Part shown: piece after piece, positions 3,207 through 63,319 of the stretch | Position numbering within the stretch: the stretch's first letter is position 1 | Layout of the letters: every line of letters starts with the position of its first letter | Origin: Intrasporangium calvum | GTDB lineage: Bacteria; Actinomycetota; Actinomycetes; Actinomycetales; Dermatophilaceae | Direction: 5' to 3' | Length of the DNA stretch: 64,000 nucleotides | NCBI RefSeq assembly: GCF_028446585.1 | Contig: NZ_JAPFQL010000011.1 | Span: 62,001-126,000, forward strand | Notes under the pieces: model-generated | Database searches by the model: none | What the model was told of the DNA's origin: nothing | The model's input: only the letters and a program-made list of their open reading frames with translations | Translations under genes and position numbers: made by a program

Positions 3207-3512
3207 GTCCGAGCTCGGGACGGAAGGCTGCGCCCTTCGACGGCACCCCGCGCGAGTCACACGCCTGCTCATGCGCGGTCTGGCCGCCTCCGGTGGCAGG
3301 TGGCGCCCGGGCGAATCCACCGCCCAGCTCCGCCTGGCAGACGCTGAACCTGTGGCCACCAAGCACGGCTCGCCGGCATATGTGTCCTTCAAGCGAGGCG
3401 CTGGAAGGGCCGCGACCTCTGCGATGGATGCCCTCGCGAGTCAAGGGCAATGTCAGTGCGGTGAGACAAGATGTGCCAGAGTGAAACCACCGCCTCCACG
3501 GAAGGATGTCTG
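3207..3512. other. Non-coding stretch at the element's left end
   Basis: Beyond the arm-site candidates I see no convincing gene here. Open frames lack ribosome-binding sites and read as low-complexity shadows. The last 20 bases carry the GGAAGG ribosome-binding site of the 60-residue gene that follows. Confidence 0.5.
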
Positions 3513-3695
3513 ATGGCCACGCTGCTCACGCCCACCGTTCCAGAGCTGGAATCGGAGCGCGCACGCCTGCTGGCGGAAACGCCGCGTGGTGAGGAGGACC
3601 TACGCGCACGCGCGGAGGACTTCCTCCTCACTCACGAGGAGGCGCGACTCCTGCGCCGTCTCGATGAGATCGACTTCCTCCTGGGACGGGACTGA
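3513..3695 (+). CDS. Small unknown protein, coiled-coil-like (60 aa)
   Basis: A 60-residue protein with GGAAGG eight bases before its ATG. It is highly charged and Leu/Glu/Arg rich, for example E-L-E-S-E-R-A-R-L-L and H-E-E-A-R-L-L-R-R-L-D-E-I-D-F-L-L, so it is probably a helical hairpin or coiled coil. The stop is 8 nt before the GTG of the next gene, which indicates an operon. Size and position would suit an antitoxin or accessory partner for the 248-residue protein, but no family is recognised. Confidence 0.65.
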   Translation: MATLLTPTVPELESERARLLAETPRGEEDLRARAEDFLLTHEEARLLRRLDEIDFLLGRD

Positions 3696-3703
3696 ACGCG
3701 CTT

Positions 3704-4450
3704 GTGACATCCCTTCACGACAAGGCGCAAGAGTTCGCAGACGAACTGACGGCGACGGTTCACGGGGCGCTTGGTAGCCACGTCCCAGCGTTCGTCGCGG
3801 AGCAGGCGCCAGAGCCCAGCGGTCCGGTGACGCGAGTGGCGGTCCATCCGGTCGGCAGCGCGGAGATCCCCCTGACCATCGACAGCGCCCGCGCCCTGTC
3901 ACTCATCGTGGACTTCCAGTGTCGATGGGACCACAAGGAAGCGTTCCTTGCCGTGAGTAAGGCGTCGATGGGTGTTGTGCCACGCAGTGGCTCGACGCCG
4001 TTGTTCCGCTACGAGTTCCACGACGCTGTCGGGGACGATGTGCCCTGCGCGCACCTCCACGTCCATGCTCACCGGGACGAGTTTGTGTTCGCGCTGTTCC
4101 GAGGAGGTCACGGCAAGCCGGCGGTGAGAGCCAAAGCGGTCGAGGGCACGAAGAAGCGGGCTACTCCCCAGTTGTCCGAGTTTCACTTCGCGCTGGGCGG
4201 GCCACGGATGAGGCCGTGCCTGGAGGACGTGCTACAGATGCTCCGAGTCGAGTGTTCCATCGACGTCACTCGCGATTTCACCTATGTCATCGAAGCGGGT
4301 CGAGCGCGATGGCGCAGACGGCAGGTCTCAGCGTCGGTCCGTGATGCTCCGGGCGCGGCCGCCACAACGCTGCGCGAGATGGGCTATCGCGTCGATGAGC
4401 CGGTGGCGGGCCCTGCGCCTGAGCGACTGACGAAGCTCACGAGGGCCTGA
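3704..4450 (+). CDS. Unknown protein with His-rich H-L-H-V-H-A-H motif (248 aa)
   Basis: GTG start at 3704, shortly after the 60-residue gene, with the next GTG 4 nt after its stop: three genes in one unit. The middle contains D-F-Q-C-R-W-D (about residue 70), P-L-F-R-Y-E-F (about 100) and A-H-L-H-V-H-A-H-R-D-E (about 115-125). This His cluster could bind metal or be catalytic. The C-terminal part is Arg-rich (R-A-R-W-R-R-R-Q). No family is assigned. A toxin-like or nucleic-acid-acting role is speculation from the neighbouring small gene and the defence genes downstream. Confidence 0.65.
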   Translation: MTSLHDKAQEFADELTATVHGALGSHVPAFVAEQAPEPSGPVTRVAVHPVGSAEIPLTIDSARALSLIVDFQCRWDHKEAFLAVSKASMGVVPRSGSTPLFRYEFHDAVGDDVPCAHLHVHAHRDEFVFALFRGGHGKPAVRAKAVEGTKKRATPQLSEFHFALGGPRMRPCLEDVLQMLRVECSIDVTRDFTYVIEAGRARWRRRQVSASVRDAPGAAATTLREMGYRVDEPVAGPAPERLTKLTRA

Positions 4451-16943: not shown

Positions 16944-17492
16944 ATGACCTGCCAACTCTGCGGCGCGGCCAACGAACCGTCGTCCAAGTTTTGCTCAAAT
17001 TGCGGCCGGCACCTGCCACAGGCAGCGGCAGCACCTGAGGCGCCGTGGGTCCACCCCCCGACCCATCCCGGACCGAAACCTCGGCGGTCGCCGCGGATCC
17101 TTCTCGGCGTTGTCCTGATCGCCATCCTGGCCGCTGCCTACGCGATCTACCAAGGCACCCGCCCGGATACCCATGCCCTCATGGTGGCCATCAGCGATCT
17201 GCCCTCCGGAGACTCGGACTGCACCAGCACCAGCTACTCGGCGAAGTACATCGTCGGCACGAACGTCACCCTGCGCCTGGCCAACGGTGAAATCGCAGGA
17301 ACAGGAACAATGGCAGGCGACGGGACGGGAGGCGCCAACTCCTGCACGTGGATCGTCTTCCTTTCCGAGGTCGTCGACTCAGCGGCATACACCCTGGAGA
17401 TCAACGGCCCTGCTGGCAACGAGACCCTCAACTACAGCAAGAGCGAGATGGAGTCTCAGAGCTGGAACATAGCTCTCTCGAAGAACTTCTAG
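16944..17492 (+). CDS. Zinc-ribbon single-pass membrane protein (182 aa)
   Basis: The N-terminus holds a zinc ribbon with Cys at 3, 6, 17 and 20 (C-x2-C and C-S-N-C). A Pro-rich linker and a basic patch (K-P-R-R-S-P-R) lead to one transmembrane helix at about 52-70. The outer domain (about 72-182) is Ser/Thr/Gly-rich with two Cys (D-C-T-S-T-S and S-C-T-W-I-V) that could form a disulfide. Topology is cytoplasmic zinc ribbon, external beta-rich domain. Function is unknown. GAAGGGAAA precedes the start, and it is divergent from the XRE regulator. Confidence 0.7.
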   Translation: MTCQLCGAANEPSSKFCSNCGRHLPQAAAAPEAPWVHPPTHPGPKPRRSPRILLGVVLIAILAAAYAIYQGTRPDTHALMVAISDLPSGDSDCTSTSYSAKYIVGTNVTLRLANGEIAGTGTMAGDGTGGANSCTWIVFLSEVVDSAAYTLEINGPAGNETLNYSKSEMESQSWNIALSKNF

Positions 17493-26767: not shown

Positions 26768-26800
26768 GGGCCGACCCTAGCGGGCGGCTAGGGTCGGCCC
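26768..26800. promoter_or_regulatory. Mirror-image divergent leaderless promoters of menB and the Nudix gene
   Basis: The 33-bp gap is a perfect inverted repeat: GGGCCGACCCTAGC (26768-26781), a 5-nt centre, and GCTAGGGTCGGCCC (26787-26800). Each arm carries TAGGGT as a -10 element followed by exactly CGGCCC and then a start codon, GTG for menB and ATG for the Nudix gene. The -35 regions must overlap the opposite gene's first codons, so the two promoters may compete. Confidence 0.75.
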
Positions 26801-56820: not shown

Positions 56821-56924
56821 ATCGAAAGAGCCCGCATCGAAAGAGCCCGCATCGAAAGAGCAGTTCGCGACACCCCACCCATCGAAAGAGCAGTTCGCGA
56901 CACGTCGCGAACTGCTCTTTCGAT
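56821..56924. repeat. ATCGAAAGAGC repeat cluster with 21-bp perfect palindrome arms
   Basis: ATCGAAAGAGC starts at 56821, 56836, 56851 and 56881; the first two units are exact 15-bp repeats ending in CCCGC and the third is 30 bp long. The last unit (56881-56901) is a perfect inverted repeat with 56904-56924, 21 bp per arm with 2 nt between. It lies between the convergent lactone oxidase and fumC genes, so it may terminate both. A second copy of the arm is at 63273-63293. Confidence 0.88.
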
Positions 56925-56963
56925 TGAGGGGGCTGGGGGTGTGCTGCCCTTTGGACCGGAAGG

Positions 56964-58394
56964 TCAGTCCGAAGGGGGCCTGGTCATCGCCAGGACGTCG
57001 AGGGCCTCGTCGAGCTGGGTCTCGGTGAGCGGGCCGTCACGAACGTGCCCGTCCTCGATGACGACCTCGCGAATCGTCTTGCGCTCCTTGACCGCCCGCT
57101 TCACCACAGCGGCAGCCGCCTCGTAGCCGATGTAGCGGTTGAGCGGCGTGACGATCGACGGTGAGCTCTCGGCGAGGGTCCGGGCATGCTCGACATCGGC
57201 GGTGATGCCGTCGACGCAGCGGTCGGCGAGCAGGCGGCTCGTGGCCGCGAGCAGCCCGATCGACTCGAGGACGTTCTTGGCGAGGACGGGCAACATGACG
57301 TTCAGCTCGAAGTTCCCGGCGGCACCGGCCGTGGTGATCGCCACGTCGTTGCCGATGACCTGCGCGCAGGCCATCAGCGTCGCCTCGGGGATGACCGGGT
57401 TGACCTTGCCCGGCATGATGCTCGAGCCCGGCTGGAGGTCCGGCAGGTGGATCTCGCCCAAGCCGGTGCGGGGACCCGACGACATCCATCGCAGGTCGTT
57501 GCAGATCTTGGTCAGACTGACCGCGACGACCTTGAGCGCACCGGACAGCTCCACCACCGCGTCCTGCGCGGACTGGGCCTCGAAGTGGTTGTCGGCCTCG
57601 CGGAACACCTGTCCCGTCGTCGCCGACACCCGCTCGATGACCGCCCGGGCGAAACCGGGCGCGGCGTTGAGGCCGGTCCCAGCCGCGGTGCCGCCCAGCG
57701 GCAGCTCCGCCGTCGCCTCCGCCGCATGATCGACGCGGGCGGCGCCCAGCTCGATCTGGCGTCGATAACCGCCGAACTCCTGGCCCAGGGTCACGGGCAC
57801 CGCGTCCATGAGGTGGGTGCGGCCCGCCTTGACGACGTCCGCGAACTCCGCCTCCTTGCGACCGAGCGCTGCGGCGAGGTGCGTGAGCGCGGGCACGAGG
57901 TCGTCGCGGGCAGCGATCGTCGCCGCGATGCGCAGGGCTGACGGGAAGGTGTCGTTGCTCGACTGCCCGTAGTTGACGTGGTCGTTCGGGTGGACGTCGA
58001 CCCCGGTCGCCATCGGCCCGGTGCTCGCCAGCCGCGCCACGACCTCGTTGACGTTCATGTTGGTCGACGTGCCGGACCCGGTCTGGAAGACGTCGATCGG
58101 GAAGTGGGCGTCGTGCCGCCCTTCGGCGACCTCCCGGGCCGCCGCCGCGATTGCCTGCGCCCGGTCGGCATCGAGCACACCCAGCTCGGCGTTGACCTCG
58201 GCCGCGGCCGCCTTGAGCCGGGCCAGGGCGTGAACCACGCCGGCGGGGACGGGTTGGCCGCTGATCGGGAAGTTGTCGATCGCCCGCGCCGTCTGCGCCC
58301 CGTAGAGGGCATCCGCGGGAACCTGCACCTCTCCCATCGAGTCGTGCTCGGTCCGGAACTCCGTGCCGTTGTCCTCGCTCATGCTGACCATCAT
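56964..58394 (-). CDS. fumC: Class II fumarate hydratase (FumC)
   Basis: FumC interconverts fumarate and malate in the citric acid cycle without an iron-sulfur cluster. The 476 residues contain the superfamily signature [25 protein letters not shown] and [11 protein letters not shown]. The ATG at 58394 overlaps the ackA stop (ATGA); the ATG at 58391 has better spacing to GGAG. It is last in the pta-ackA-fumC unit and ends facing the palindromic repeat. Confidence 0.95.
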
Positions 58395-59587
58395 GCTCCA
58401 GCAGCGACCCCCGCAGCCTCGCGAGCGATCTCGAGCTCCTCCTCGGTGGGGATGACGAGGACGGCGACGCGGCTCGACGCCGTGGAGATGCGGTGTTCCC
58501 CGGACATCGCTGCGTCGTTGGCTGCAGCGTCGACCTCGATGCCGAGCAGGTCGTCCAGGCCGTCCAGGCAGGCCCGGCGCAGCATCGGGCTGTGCTCACC
58601 CACGCCGGCAGTGAAGGCCACGGCATCGACGCGACCCAGCACAGCGGCATACGCCCCGATGTACTTGCGCAGGCGGTGGGCCACGACGTCGAAGGCCAGC
58701 CGGGCGTCACCGTCCCCGGCCACGACCTGCTCCTCGAGCTCACGGAAGTCGTTGCTCCCGGTCAGGCCCTTGAGGCCGCTCTCCTTGTTGAGCGCCCGGT
58801 CGTACTCCTCCAGGGACACGCCCGCCCGCGCCAGGTGGGCCGGCAGCGACGGGTCGAGATCGCCCGGACGGGTGCCCATGACGAGGCCCTCGAGCGGCGA
58901 GAGGCCCATCGACGTGTCGACGCTCCGGCCGCCGGCGACCGCAGTCGCGCTGGCGCCGTTGCCGAGGTGGAGCACGATGACGTTGGCCGTTTCGACCGGC
59001 AGCTCGAGCAGCTCCGCCGCGCGCCGGGACACGTAGGCGTGGGACGTGCCGTGGAAGCCGTAGCGGCGCACCCGGTGCTCGTCCCGCCACTGGCGGCTCA
59101 CCGCATAGGTGTAGGCGTGAGGCGGCAGCGTCTGGTGGAAGGCCGTGTCGAAGACGGCGACCTGAGGCACGGCGGGGAAGTGGGCGCGGGCCACCCGGAT
59201 TCCCTCCAGGTTGGCGGGGTTGTGCAGCGGAGCCAGCGGGACGAGCCGCTCGATCGTCGCCTCGACCTCGTCGTCGATCAACGTCGGCGCACTGAACTGT
59301 GCACCGCCGTGGACGACCCGGTGGCCGACAGCGGTCAGCTCGAGGCCGGCGAGATCGGGCCCGTGCTGGTGGAACGCGCCGAGGAGCAGGTCGAACGCCG
59401 CGCCGTGGTCCGCGCACTCGCCCTCTGTGCGGTGGTGCGCGCCCCCGACCGAGTGCTTCGCGCGGGACGTCGCCTCGCCGATGCGCTCGACGATGCCGCT
59501 GGCCAGCGACTCACCCGCGTCGACGTCGATGAGGTCGTACTTCAACGACGACGACCCGGCGTTGACGACGAGGACGAGGCGGCTCAC
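58391..59587 (-). CDS. ackA: Acetate kinase (AckA)
   Basis: AckA forms ATP and acetate from acetyl phosphate. The 398 residues include the start [32 protein letters not shown] and H-L-G-N-G-A-S-A. It overlaps pta by 4 bp upstream and fumC by 4 bp downstream, so all three are coupled. A reverse-orientation core of the dispersed motif lies within it (58642-58652). Confidence 0.96.
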
Positions 59588-61656
59588 GAGAGACCCTCGG
59601 CCTGGATCGCGGTGATGGCGATGGTGTTGACGATGTCCCGCACGAGGGCTCCTCGGGAGAGGTCGTTGACCGGCTTGTTGAGACCCTGGAGCACCGGGCC
59701 GATGGCCACGGCGCCGGAGGTCCGCTGCACGGCCTTGTAGGTGTTGTTGCCGGTGTTGAGGTCGGGGAAGACGAACACCGTGGCCCGCCCGGCCACGGGG
59801 CTGTCCTTGATCTTGGCGGCCGCCACCGCGGCGTCCACCGCGGCGTCGTACTGGATGGGGCCCTCCACCGACAGCTGCGGCGCCCGTGTCCGCACCAGCT
59901 CGGTGGCGGTGCGGACCTTGTCGACGTCGGCGCCGGTTCCGGAGCCACCCGTGGAGTAGGAGAGCATCGCGATGCGCGGCTCGATCCCGAACTGCTGCGC
60001 CGTGGCGGCCGAGGAGATGGCGATGTCGGCGAGCTGCTCGGCGGTGGGGTCGGGGATGACGGCGCAGTCGCCGTAGACGAGGACCCGGTCGGCCATGGAC
60101 ATGAGGAAGACGGACGAGACCGTCTTGATGTCAGGCGTCGTCTTGACGACCTCGAGGGCGGGACGGATCGTGTGGGCCGTGGTGTGGATGGCCCCGGACA
60201 CCATCCCGTCCGCCAGCCCGTCGCGGACCATCATCGTGCCGAAGTAGCTCGGGTCGACGACGATGTCGCGGGCCTGCTCCACGGTGACGCCCTTGTGCGC
60301 CCGCAGCGTGGCGTACTCCTCGGCGAAGCGGCTGCGGAGCTCGTCGTCATGGGGGTCGAGCAGCGTGGCGCCCTCGATGTCGAGACCGAGCTGGGCGGCT
60401 CGACGACGGATCGCACCGGGGTCGCCGAGGAGGGTGAGCCGGACGACCCGCCGGCGCAGGAGCTGGTCGGCGGCGCGGAGGATCCGGTCCTCCTCGCCCT
60501 CGGGCAGGACGATGTGCTTGTCGGCGGCGCGCGCCCGGTCGAGCAGCTGGTGCTCGAACATCAGCGGCGTCACGACATGGCTGGGCACGAGGTTGAGCCG
60601 GTCGAGCAGCTCTGCGCCGTCCACGTGCTCGTCGAAGAGGCTGAGCGCGGTCTCGATCTTGCGGGTCGCCGAGCGCGTCATCCGGGGGACCACGGCGGAC
60701 AGCGTCGCGGCCGTCTGCATGGTGCCGGTGGCGCAGCTGATCACCGGCACGTGGACCTCGAGGCCCTCGACCAGGGTGGTGATCGGGGCCGGCAGGTCGA
60801 AGCCGCCGTTGAGGACGATGCCGGAGGGCGTGGGCAGGGTCTGGGAGCGGTGGGCGAGCAGGAGGCCGAGGAGCACGTCGCCGCGGTCGGCGGGTGCGAC
60901 GGCCACGCAACCCTCGAAGATCCGGTCGAGGACGTTGGGCAGGGTCATGGCGGCCACGACGAGACCGAGGGACTCGCGGTCGAGCAGGTCGTCGTCGCCG
61001 TAGAGGTGCTTGCCGTCCACGGCAGCGAGGAGGTCTCGCACGGTGGGGGACTCGAGCACCGGGGCGCTCGGGATGACGTAGGTGGCTGTGTCACCCAGTG
61101 CTTCCGCGAGCGCGCTGCGGGTGGCCGGCACGGCGTCGGGGACGGCTCGGTTGGACACCACCGCGAGCACGTGGGCGTGGTTGGCCCGGGCCTCGTCCGC
61201 GGCGATCTCCGCCGCGACGCGGACCTGCTCGGGGGTCCGGCCCGTGCTCGAGATGACGAGCACCATCGGGGAGTCCAGGTTGGCCGCGATCTTCGCGTTG
61301 TAGGAGAACTCGGTCGGCGACGTGACGTCGGTGTAGTCGGAGCCGATGACGAGCATGGCGTCGAACTGCTCGGCGACAGCGTGGAACCGGTCGACGATGG
61401 TGGCCATCGCCCGCTCCGGGTCAGCGTGGACGTCCTCGTAGCCGACGCCCGAGGCATCCTCCGCCGTGAGGCCGGTGTCGAGCCGCGAGAGGAGCAGGTC
61501 GAGCACATGGTCGCTCGCGGCGCTCTCGGAGCGCACGATGGGCCGGAAGATCCCGACGCGCTCGACGCGTCGGCTCAGCTGGTCGAGGATGCCGAGGGCC
61601 ACGGCGGACTTGCCCGACAGCCCTTCCGATGAGGCGAGGTACACGCTGGTGGACAC
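59584..61656 (-). CDS. pta: Phosphate acetyltransferase (Pta), long form
   Basis: Pta exchanges CoA and phosphate on acetyl groups. The 690 residues combine an N-terminal P-loop, DRTGG-containing regulatory half (S-S-E-G-L-S-G-K-S-A-V near the start) with the catalytic C-terminal half (R-A-A-D-K-H-I-V-L-P-E-G-E, V-Y-G-D-C-A-V-I-P-D-P and S-Y-S-T-G-G-S-G). A GTG start at 61656 follows TAGCCT after exactly 6 nt, so it is probably leaderless. Overlap with ackA gives the usual pta-ackA pair. Confidence 0.95.
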   Translation of the reverse strand: MSTSVYLASSEGLSGKSAVALGILDQLSRRVERVGIFRPIVRSESAASDHVLDLLLSRLDTGLTAEDASGVGYEDVHADPERAMATIVDRFHAVAEQFDAMLVIGSDYTDVTSPTEFSYNAKIAANLDSPMVLVISSTGRTPEQVRVAAEIAADEARANHAHVLAVVSNRAVPDAVPATRSALAEALGDTATYVIPSAPVLESPTVRDLLAAVDGKHLYGDDDLLDRESLGLVVAAMTLPNVLDRIFEGCVAVAPADRGDVLLGLLLAHRSQTLPTPSGIVLNGGFDLPAPITTLVEGLEVHVPVISCATGTMQTAATLSAVVPRMTRSATRKIETALSLFDEHVDGAELLDRLNLVPSHVVTPLMFEHQLLDRARAADKHIVLPEGEEDRILRAADQLLRRRVVRLTLLGDPGAIRRRAAQLGLDIEGATLLDPHDDELRSRFAEEYATLRAHKGVTVEQARDIVVDPSYFGTMMVRDGLADGMVSGAIHTTAHTIRPALEVVKTTPDIKTVSSVFLMSMADRVLVYGDCAVIPDPTAEQLADIAISSAATAQQFGIEPRIAMLSYSTGGSGTGADVDKVRTATELVRTRAPQLSVEGPIQYDAAVDAAVAAAKIKDSPVAGRATVFVFPDLNTGNNTYKAVQRTSGAVAIGPVLQGLNKPVNDLSRGALVRDIVNTIAITAIQAEGLS

Positions 61657-61662
61657 ATAGGC

Positions 61663-61668
61663 AGGCTA
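61663..61668 (-). promoter_or_regulatory. Predicted leaderless -10 element of pta
   Basis: On the minus strand TAGCCT is followed by 6 nt and the GTG start at 61656. The layout matches the TAGGGT-N6-start sites at menB, the Nudix gene and the aldolase gene. Confidence 0.5.
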
Positions 61669-61737
61669 TCGCCCGCGGGCAGGTGGTCTGACCACATGAG
61701 GCCGTTGGGCTGGCTCAGCATGAAAGGGTGGCCAACC

Positions 61738-63249
61738 TCACTCCGTCTCGGCGGGCTGGCCGGGGCATCCTTCAGACCCTGCGCAGGACCAGCCCACCGG
61801 TGCCGTATGCCGCTGGGCTTGCTTGTCGAGCTCCGTGACGTCCGTGCGTGGCTGGGTCTCGTCGGTCCGGTTCGGGTTGCGGATGAGCAGCCACGAGACG
61901 ACGCCTCCGCCGGTCAGGAGGGCCGCGCAGACCCACATGGCCCTGCCGTAGCCCGTGTCGAACGCGACCGCGCTCTGGTAGTCCGCGCCGCTCAGGCCGA
62001 CCGCCGCGGGGAGTGCGGCGACCGCCAGCAGGCTCCCTGCGCGGGCCACCGCATTGTTGACCCCGCTCGCGATGCCGGCCCAGCGGTCCGGTGCGGCGGC
62101 CAGGACGGTGGCGGTGAGTGGCGCCACGAGGATGCACAGCCCCAGACCGAACACGCTGATGCCGGGCAGGACTGCGGTCCAGTAGGAGTCGCCGGCCCCG
62201 ACGCCCGTCAGCAGGGCGGCGCCTGCGGCACAGACGAGCGGTCCGACGGCCATCGGCACGCGAGGGCCGATCCTTGTGGCGATCTCGCCGCCCTGGGCAG
62301 CGAGAAAGAGCATGAGCACCGTCACCGGCAGGGTGGCGAGCCCGGCCAGGAGGGGGCCGTAGCCGAGGACCGTCTGCAGCTGGAGGGTGAGGAAGAAGAA
62401 GACTGCTCCCAGCGCCGCGTAGACGAGCATGGTCATGAGGTTCGCGGCGGTGAACTGGCGCGAGGCGAAGAGGGACGGCTGGACCATCGGGTGCCGGCTG
62501 CGAATCTCGACCACGGCGAAGCCGACCGCAGCAGCGACGGCAAGGAGGACCAGCGTCGTCGCGGTGGCGGCGCCGAGGGCCTCGAGCTGGATGAGGGCGT
62601 AGGTCAGCAGGGCCAGCGCCAGACTGGCCAGGACGGCGCCCGCGACATCGAACTGTCGGGGCGCCGACGGGTCCCGGGTCTCGGGCACGGCGGTGCGGGC
62701 GATCCAGACCGTGACCGCGGCCAGGGGGAGGTTGAGCAGGAACGCCCAACGCCACGAGGCGTACTCGACGAGCCAGCCGCCGACGAACGGACCGGTGGCA
62801 GCGGCGATCCCGCCCAGCCCGGACCAGGCGCCGATGGCCTTGGCCCGGTCCTCGGGGCGAAAGACCGACTGGATGATCGAGAGGCTGCCCGGCGTCAGCA
62901 ACGCGCCGCCGACGCCCTGCAGCAGCCGGGCGGCGATGAGCTGCCCGGCGCTCTGCGACAGCCCACAGGCCAACGAGGCGAGCGCGAACCACACGACGCC
63001 GATGACGAAGACCTTGCGCCGTCCGAAGCGGTCGCCGAGCGAGCCACCGAGCAGGATCAGCGACGCCAGGGCGAGGAGGTAGCCGTTGGTGATCCACTGC
63101 AGGTCAGCGAGGCTCGCGTCGAGCTCGGCGCCGATCCGCACCAGCGCCACGTTGACGACGGTGCCGTCGAGCAGCGCCATCCCCGACCCGAGCACCGCCG
63201 CCGCGATGACGAGCCGCCCGGCGGGGGTCCCCAGCTCGATGCCGGCCAC
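61738..63249 (-). CDS. MFS drug exporter, DHA2 (EmrB/QacA) family
   Basis: The 503 residues form about 14 transmembrane helices. Motifs are L-D-G-T-V-V-N-V-A-L near residue 27, the MFS motif G-S-L-G-D-R-F-G-R-R-K (about 72-82) and R-L-L-Q-G-V-G-G-A-L-L-T-P-G. These identify proton-driven 14-TMS exporters of drugs or dyes. The C-terminal about 40 residues are hydrophilic and variable, and an exact copy of the dispersed 14-mer overlaps this tail (61805-61818). A GTG at 63249 is the start. The substrate is unknown. Confidence 0.92.
   Translation of the reverse strand: MAGIELGTPAGRLVIAAAVLGSGMALLDGTVVNVALVRIGAELDASLADLQWITNGYLLALASLILLGGSLGDRFGRRKVFVIGVVWFALASLACGLSQSAGQLIAARLLQGVGGALLTPGSLSIIQSVFRPEDRAKAIGAWSGLGGIAAATGPFVGGWLVEYASWRWAFLLNLPLAAVTVWIARTAVPETRDPSAPRQFDVAGAVLASLALALLTYALIQLEALGAATATTLVLLAVAAAVGFAVVEIRSRHPMVQPSLFASRQFTAANLMTMLVYAALGAVFFFLTLQLQTVLGYGPLLAGLATLPVTVLMLFLAAQGGEIATRIGPRVPMAVGPLVCAAGAALLTGVGAGDSYWTAVLPGISVFGLGLCILVAPLTATVLAAAPDRWAGIASGVNNAVARAGSLLAVAALPAAVGLSGADYQSAVAFDTGYGRAMWVCAALLTGGGVVSWLLIRNPNRTDETQPRTDVTELDKQAQRHTAPVGWSCAGSEGCPGQPAETE
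61805..61818 (+). repeat. Dispersed 14-mer GTATGCCGCTGGGC, copy 5
   Basis: Exact copy in the hydrophilic tail of the MFS gene, antisense to it, followed by TTGCTT. Confidence 0.8.
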
Positions 63250-63272
63250 CGACCCACTTTGTCACGCGCCTC

Positions 63273-63310
63273 ATCGAAAGAGCAGTTCGCGACGGCGCGA
63301 CACAGGGCTC
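63273..63310. repeat. Second copy of the ATCGAAAGAGC palindromic repeat
   Basis: Positions 63273-63293 match the 21-bp left arm of the palindrome at 56881 exactly. The right arm has decayed: GCTCTTT remains at 63307-63313, leaving an imperfect hairpin. It lies between the MFS gene and the RarD-type gene, downstream of the latter. Confidence 0.8.
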
Positions 63311-63319
63311 TTTGGACGG

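Follow-up and report, generated by a model that had tools for sequence, protein, structure and literature searches.

The genome of Intrasporangium calvum carries a family of short palindromes, dispersed at about a hundred copies and lying mostly at the 3' ends of genes, and a linked gene whose product is predicted to join an AbiEi-like part to an EDxHD-nuclease-like part. Together they probably form a system comparable to REPIN/RAYT but built on an unrelated nuclease, in which a hairpin element that carries the gene has given rise to the palindromes as non-autonomous copies.

The window analysed here, meaning the whole stretch of 64,000 nucleotides, holds two members of the family. The first (56821-56924) is an array of units in the order + + + + -, in which ATCGAAAGAGC starts at 56821, 56836, 56851 and 56881 on the forward strand and occupies 56914-56924 on the reverse strand. 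Its outermost units (56821-56831 and 56836-56846, +) are bare half-units, 15-bp tandem copies without AGTTCGCGAC, followed by a full forward arm, ATCGAAAGAGCAGTTCGCGAC (56851-56871, +; inverted repeat I3), and then by a perfect palindrome whose 21-nt left (56881-56901, +) and right (56904-56924, -) arms are fully complementary across a gap of 2 nt; the arm at 56851-56871 is likewise fully complementary to 56904-56924. The second element has an intact forward arm (63273-63293, +; read and measured) and a degenerate reverse arm read by eye (63305-63316, -; core GGGCTCTTTGGA), and its counterpart site in genome G001 (L106) is a + + + - array. The original prediction had described exactly such a pair, a perfect palindrome with 21-bp arms at 56.9 kb and a partly decayed copy at 63.3 kb, and placed both downstream of genes. 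This position holds for the 56.9-kb cluster, which sits between convergent genes for an ALO-type oxidase and fumarase C, and in part for the 63.3-kb copy, which lies 3' of an EamA gene yet also 5' of an MFS gene. Six matches at ≤1 mismatch occur in the window vs 0.68 expected, a number reached by none of 100 shuffles, and the 56.9-kb palindrome is one of only two hairpins scoring ≥14 in the whole 64 kb. An Rfam scan of the window gave no match at gathering score.

Searched through the genome of the window (G000, 4.12 Mb), the arm yields 98 exact 11-mers (50 forward, 48 reverse) vs 0 + 0 for a reversed-pattern control, rather than the two copies of the window alone; among the stretches read they fall in 45 places, mainly at gene 3' ends. 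The palindromes are thus a dispersed, REP-like family that has been amplified and locally expanded in tandem, as had been proposed from the window. The 15-mer is present in four of 149 family genomes at 78-103 copies each and missing from the other 145; among the matches listed, 100 of 103 copies in G001 and 100 of 101 in G039 were placed, with some of the places fetched. The length of the hairpin is fixed, 40 of 50 measuring exactly 60 bp from TCGA to TCGA (one hairpin, L196/L295, counted twice), with a variable loop and arms of 17-25 nt inside the constant total. A related arm pattern, built from the hairpins found beside homologues of the linked gene, reaches at least five dispersed copies in 24 of the 149 genomes, all of which have a homologue, and in none of 21 homologue-free genomes (p 0.019). 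A closer-relative pattern detected CGAAAGGGCAGTTCG 14 times in G063, including a pair that makes up the hairpin at the 3' end of L214, a broken homologue, and no amplification of the g53-type hairpin within the variants that it covers, which are only some.

Two other origins for the repeat were rejected. The 44-nt palindrome has no match in plasmid and phage collections, which sets aside a plasmid or phage repeat; the 18 genome_contigs records with one exact 18-mer each belong to scattered unrelated taxa (records near the window's genome may have been omitted) and are taken as chance. DNA uptake sequences occur at about one copy per 1-2 kb, and 98 copies in 4.12 Mb are too few.

The linked gene lies outside the window, on contig C159 of the same genome. 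In all four carriers it stands between + units at one flank and - units at the opposite flank, and its neighbourhood differs between the two carrier genera. The product of ~335 aa, modelled with a pLDDT of 95, is predicted to combine an AbiEi-like part, residues 2-191 resembling AbiEi 6y8q (Z 12.6, rmsd 5.8, 177 aligned), with an EDxHD nuclease part, residues 196-300 resembling I-Bth0305I (Z 11.2) and Vsr (Z 10.5). Residues 47-190 also resemble MenT nucleotidyltransferases (MenT1 Z 10.4), which makes it uncertain that the N-terminal part reads DNA; a Foldseek search with the model returned no match at E ≤0.001. The nuclease residues are kept throughout the homologues, with E199 and D232 in 55 of 55 members, D259 in 54 and the motif H in 52. 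PF04480 is matched by 23 of the 55 at E ≤0.1 and PADLOC AbiEi models match up to 30; for the G000 protein itself Pfam DUF559 stays below cut-off and no PADLOC AbiEi model matches. DUF559-like genes occur in 128 of the 149 family genomes, with 1-9 matches each. A search of the open PMC literature, which includes few subscription papers and no bioRxiv-only work, yielded no paper tying dispersed palindromes to genes of the DUF559 or AbiEi-like kind.

Homologues in other genera often adjoin hairpins of other sequence. Across 70 homologue loci, 34 hairpins lie within 0-150 bp downstream (67 flanking windows) vs 5 farther downstream, 21 lie upstream (69 flanking windows) vs 12 farther upstream, and 3 fall within the genes. 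The arms are gene-specific: 5' and 3' arms are 97% identical around the same gene and 60% identical between genes (15 genes), with some arms of different genes identical (maximum 1.0). Furthermore, arm distance follows protein distance (Mantel r 0.71, p 0.0002, 29 genes), a correlation that could arise from shared descent. No strong hairpin lies near 31 of the 70 homologues; these include the clade closest to the carriers and the second copy examined in the own genome. In a phylum-wide draw 105 of 396 genomes match at E ≤1e-10, and a hairpin lies within 150 bp of 6 of the 29 new loci; outside the family this is so at 5 of 26 loci, which have no common arm type.

Comparison with a sister species reveals that the copies change together. 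Among 42 stretches 18 sites are shared, and at 15 of these 18 the inner stem is genome-specific, from which it follows that the copies evolve in concert. Inner-stem positions 17-19 are paired in 95-97% of doublets vs 34-62% when shuffled across genomes and 88-93% when shuffled within them (78 of 90 doublets, 12 with an outer length under 44 being dropped); given the high pairing of within-genome shuffles, only the between-genome contrast carries weight. Constancy of the outer arm is partly by construction, since that arm belongs to the search pattern. At the loci compared, no insertion or excision event was seen, and neither a clean empty site nor a target-site duplication was found. L162 was rejected as an empty site for the linked gene, its hairpin lying past the neighbouring gene; the matching G039 interval (L278) lacks the linked gene but has another ORF, and therefore shows that the gene is located elsewhere, not that the site is cleanly empty; and what had been taken for an insertion/absence pair at L090/L091, G039 against G075, is an inversion.

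From these patterns we infer that the protein binds and cleaves the palindromes and that they are copied or mobilised as a result. The complete element would consist of one or more arms, the gene and one or more inverted arms, with the palindromes as its non-autonomous copies. The AbiEi-like N-terminal part would be expected to recognise the inverted repeat formed by the ~20-bp arm, the protein would bind and cut or nick cognate palindromes, and break repair templated by a further copy would spread the sequence to new intergenic sites, homogenise the copies of a genome and expand the tandem half-units. Our bolder proposal is offered tentatively, as one that may well not hold in full: a new class in which an AbiEi-like/EDxHD nuclease reads its own ~60-72-bp palindrome through the N-terminal part and cuts it, so that mending of the break would carry the palindrome, at times together with the gene, to new intergenic sites, giving each gene lineage its own hairpin population and concerted evolution at fixed sites. 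Given that gene 3' ends hold the majority of the classified copies, the hairpins probably also affect the host, as a structure in transcription or at mRNA 3' ends. An active process rather than a simple terminator, as first suggested, is accordingly plausible as a contrast, with the reservation that a terminator side effect may coexist.

The strongest competing explanation, though an unlikely one, is that the palindromes are host structures kept by selection, serving between convergent genes to terminate transcription in both directions or to stabilise mRNA 3' ends, the gene-side hairpins being the gene's operator and terminator. It would account for the excess of convergent over divergent settings (52 vs 11 among 107 classified places, p 1.7e-7, by a crude GC3 frame rule that left out 28 of 135 places as unclear), for a very stable RNA fold (z = -5.5 for the 56.9-kb palindrome) and for the sites shared with a sister species. 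A terminator, however, requires structure and not one sequence fixed across ~100 sites; a scan for T-tract hairpins, in which a run of T comes after a G+C stem, called none on either strand at 56.9 kb and a weak minus-strand stem at 63300-63287; the 15-mer is missing from nearly all family genomes; and the reading explains neither the genome-specific inner stems nor the agreement between the arms 5' and 3' of a single gene. Less probable again is an operator network, in which the AbiEi-like protein would act as regulator or nucleoid protein at dispersed binding sites, the palindromes, without moving them. AbiEi-type antitoxins do bind paired inverted repeats, according to the available text of PMC7319586, and a fixed 60-bp spacing with variable loop suits binding to duplex DNA, but the sites lie mainly at gene 3' ends and not in divergent promoter regions, the nuclease residues are conserved, and amplification is lineage-specific with tandem expansion. 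Miniature relics of an ordinary DDE transposon with an unrecognised transposase are improbable: the arm-gene-inverted arm layout would fit, and a transposase-like ORF (named by reading) lies between two units once (G039 C3:181745-183110; the transposase survey covered PF01797 only), but the gene between inverted units is AbiEi/EDxHD-like in all four carriers and homologues in other genera have their own matching hairpins. A classical REP/RAYT element, for whose transposase the original prediction had advised a search and which the inverted doublets would suit, as would a size, a copy number and a position at gene 3' ends like those of REPINs (PMC3116915, in the parts available), is scarcely credible and a RAYT-type mover is rejected, Y1_Tnp (PF01797) being found 0 times in the own genome and in 0 of 10 relatives with a control that matched in 5 of 14 genomes, the arm foot having no constant GTAG tetranucleotide (element flanks, by eye), and the linked gene being AbiEi-like/EDxHD-nuclease-like instead.

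The proposed REPIN/RAYT-like system on an unrelated nuclease offers a concrete, testable pairing of gene and repeat outside the RAYT family, whose arm specificity can be swapped and assayed, together with a testable function for DUF559-like genes; it also hints at another route by which very short repeats might spread and keep their sequence uniform. Residues 196-300 of the protein are predicted to fold like the EDxHD nucleases (Vsr, I-Bth0305I, DUF559 proteins), whose E, D, H and D residues it also has; unlike them, it is linked to palindromes and not to an intron or mismatch repair. I-Bth0305I has a homing role, which is suggestive only for the palindromes here. With AbiEi antitoxins (Streptococcus AbiEi, Rv2827c) it shares the predicted fold of residues 2-191, and their inverted repeats, of 23 bp for AbiEi, are similar in arm length (PMC7319586, available text); unlike them, it is fused to a nuclease-like part and its repeats are dispersed through the genome. 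For many bacterial palindromic repeats no mover is known, and the 2013 survey of CGTC-tagged REPs, in its available text, reports no dedicated transposase or other enzyme and names Actinobacteria 0 times in the main text (PMC3733652). Those repeats are likewise palindromes at gene 3' ends, and many arms here start (C)GTCGA, but they are described in that text with 8-9-bp stems, 4-5-nt loops and no linked gene (PMC3733652). From REP/REPIN-RAYT the system differs in its predicted AbiEi-like/EDxHD-like enzyme, no Y1 transposase having been found, and in a single unit that bears no GTAG tag and is not itself palindromic, with 17-25 nt arms and a fixed total length. It resembles REP/REPIN-RAYT, as far as the available texts describe it (PMC2817692, PMC3116915), in its small inverted doublets, in ~100 dispersed copies at gene 3' ends, in arms that track the gene lineage and in a gene whose presence is tied to copy number; and in both, though the enzyme differs, a dedicated gene lies between repeats in inverted orientation, here in four of four carriers.

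At 56821-56924 of the window, sequence reading and a repeat search resolve a hairpin array in which ATCGAAAGAGC occurs four times forward and then once in reverse; forward copies one and two are bare half-units of 15 bp each, and the fourth, together with the reverse copy, forms a perfect palindrome with arms of 21 nt and a gap of 2 nt. A second element at 63273 keeps one arm intact beside a decayed partner (sequence reading and motif search), so that the original prediction of a perfect 21-bp-arm palindrome at 56.9 kb and a partly decayed copy at 63.3 kb is upheld. Only two hairpins in the 64-kb window score at least 14, the 56.9-kb palindrome being one; the other, at 26768-26800, appears unrelated to the palindrome family. 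The genome-wide arm search proposed in the prediction extends the family beyond the window's two sites, to 50 + 48 exact 11-mer copies in the own genome, an assembly of 163 contigs and 4.12 Mb (none for the reversed control), falling in 45 places among the stretches read. Elements here usually comprise a run of forward units and then a run of reverse units, with a commonest length of 42 bp and a second group at 71-72 bp; 70-74 bp is commonest in the sister species (G001) and in G039, a carrier in another genus. The 15-mer CGAAAGAGCAGTTCG is present in 78 copies in the own genome (G000), 103 in G001, and 101 and 91 respectively in the two other-genus carriers, and is absent from the remaining 145 of 149 family genomes. 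Fifteen own-genome contigs end within 50 bp of an element (C12, C21, C39, C40, C41, C51, C88, C98, C109, C110, C119, C147, C149, C158 and C159), from which it follows that the assembly breaks at palindromes and that the own-genome count is probably too low. Convergent and divergent junctions are necessarily about equally frequent along a chromosome; among the 107 classifiable of 135 element places in three genomes, 52 were convergent, 44 codirectional and 11 divergent (convergent versus divergent, p 1.7e-7).

In G000, G001, G039 and G075 the repeats flank a single gene, with forward units at one end and reverse units at the other. This gene has the same neighbours in G000 and G001; G039 and G075 (the other-genus carriers) share a neighbourhood unlike that one, and the G039 interval matching the G000/G001 locus holds a different ORF in place of the gene. 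The G000 protein shares 66% identity with its G001 counterpart, 64% with that of G075, and 67% and 57% with the two pieces, in different frames, of the G039 gene; the next best genome reaches 56%. At 70 homologue loci of the family (30 from the homologue search and 40 more taken in rank order), hairpins scoring at least 14 were concentrated beside the gene, numbering 34 in 67 windows 0-150 bp downstream versus 5 in windows farther downstream, 21 in 69 near-upstream windows versus 12 farther upstream, and 3 over ~444 window-equivalents within the genes. Of the 70 genes, 39 have a close hairpin and 15 have hairpins on both sides, a close strong hairpin being missing at 31; beyond the family, gene and hairpin are weakly linked. 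Arms of the same gene averaged 97% identity versus 60% between different genes (15 two-sided genes), although a few arm pairs from different genes are identical. From TCGA to TCGA the hairpin measured exactly 60 bp in 40 of 50 cases, 59 or 61 in 8 and 39 in 2, total length being fixed and the loop variable. The hairpin is particular to each gene lineage. Arm distance tracks protein distance across 29 genes (Mantel r 0.71, p 0.0002), a correlation that shared descent could also explain. Close non-carrier homologues at L190, L191, L194, L215, L216 and L217 are followed after 70-335 bp by a different hairpin, its arm mostly GAACGGGCCGG, with 1-3 matches per genome (the pattern covers some variants). 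At L214 (contig C99 of the family genome G063), a homologue with an in-frame stop has on each side a hairpin resembling the window's arm; the arm sequence of these hairpins, CGAAAGGGCAGTTCG, has 14 copies in G063.

Related arms are dispersed elsewhere as well. A degenerate pattern derived from homologue-flanking arms reached at least 5 copies in 24 of 149 family genomes (maximum 51; reversed control at most 2 throughout), all 24 carrying a homologue, while the 21 homologue-free genomes had at most one copy each (p 0.019 versus genomes with a homologue). In G102, another family genome, 15 stretches were read around matches remote from linked genes: 11 held a hairpin scoring at least 13, 7 of these being 61-62 bp long, and 5 hairpins shared the arm type found next to one linked gene. 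When 42 own-genome stretches were compared with G001, a counterpart with an element occupied the same gap at 18, including the two sites in the window. At these 18 sites the recognised G000 units have the inner stem GCGAC or ACGAC, and at 15 G001 has neither, mostly carrying GTCCC or GTCCG; stem pairing is maintained across genomes, the within-genome version of this test having little power. Such genome-specific stems are expected of a copying process but not of independent drift of single sites, and the sequence comparison shows concerted evolution of the hairpin copies at shared sites.

An AlphaFold2 model of the G000 protein (pLDDT 95, pTM 0.91) matches the AbiEi antitoxin 6y8q over residues 2-191 (Z 12.6, rmsd 5.8, 177 aligned), with residues 47-190 also matching MenT1 (Z 10.4); residues 196-300 match the I-Bth0305I catalytic domain (Z 11.2, rmsd 2.6) and Vsr (Z 10.5, rmsd 2.4). 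Foldseek alone gave no match to the model at E <=0.001, and DUF559 fell below its cut-off in a profile search of the G000 protein. Among the 55 aligned members, 23 matched PF04480 at E <=0.1 and 30 matched a single PADLOC AbiEi model, the G000 protein not among these 30. E199 and D232 are present in 55/55 members, D259 in 54/55 and the histidine of the EYQG-x-H motif in 52/55. In Caulobacter, responsibility for an SOS response has been attributed to a Vsr-like protein containing DUF559 (PMC12907096). AbiEi-type proteins are reported to bind paired inverted repeats of 23 bp (PMC7319586), a binding mode consistent with the ~20-bp arms and the fixed palindrome length. By analogy, the AbiEi-like part would be the putative reader of the arm, and the nuclease part joined to it could introduce a break in the palindrome. 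If the break is then repaired from another copy, the palindrome would both spread and become homogenised, and slippage during repair may yield tandem half-units, as in the window and elsewhere. We infer that the linked protein probably binds and cuts the palindromes and thereby brings about their copying, and that the elements may be mobile.

A second dispersed motif, GTATGCCGCTGGG, occurs in the window at 17378, 31375, 32970, 36529, 43442, 44641, 48032, 58640 and 61805 (9 matches at no more than one mismatch versus 0.08 expected), several within open frames. It also adjoins hairpin elements in G000, G001 and G039, and its frequency is reminiscent of uptake or recombination motifs. Between L090 (G039) and L091 (G075), a ~2.5-kb block with the ALO-gene region is inverted, around 580-1004 and 3511-3729, with hairpin-type units at three of the four junctions.

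The palindrome had no match in a plasmid or a phage collection, and our search of the openly accessible literature found no published description of the hairpin-gene system. The RAYT-type transposase that the original prediction proposed to look for did not materialise: PF01797 had no match in the own genome or 10 relatives, which rules out a RAYT-driven repeat as far as this profile can tell, and a constant GTAG tag is absent from the flanks of own-genome elements. A DNA uptake sequence is ruled out, as 50 + 48 copies in 4.12 Mb are too rare. The system does show the association marks of REP-RAYT pairs given in PMC2817692 and PMC3116915, but differs in its enzyme, for want of a PF01797 match, and is therefore not assigned to that family. 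Without such membership, the hairpin-gene system appears, by analogy, to resemble a REP-RAYT pair in its working.
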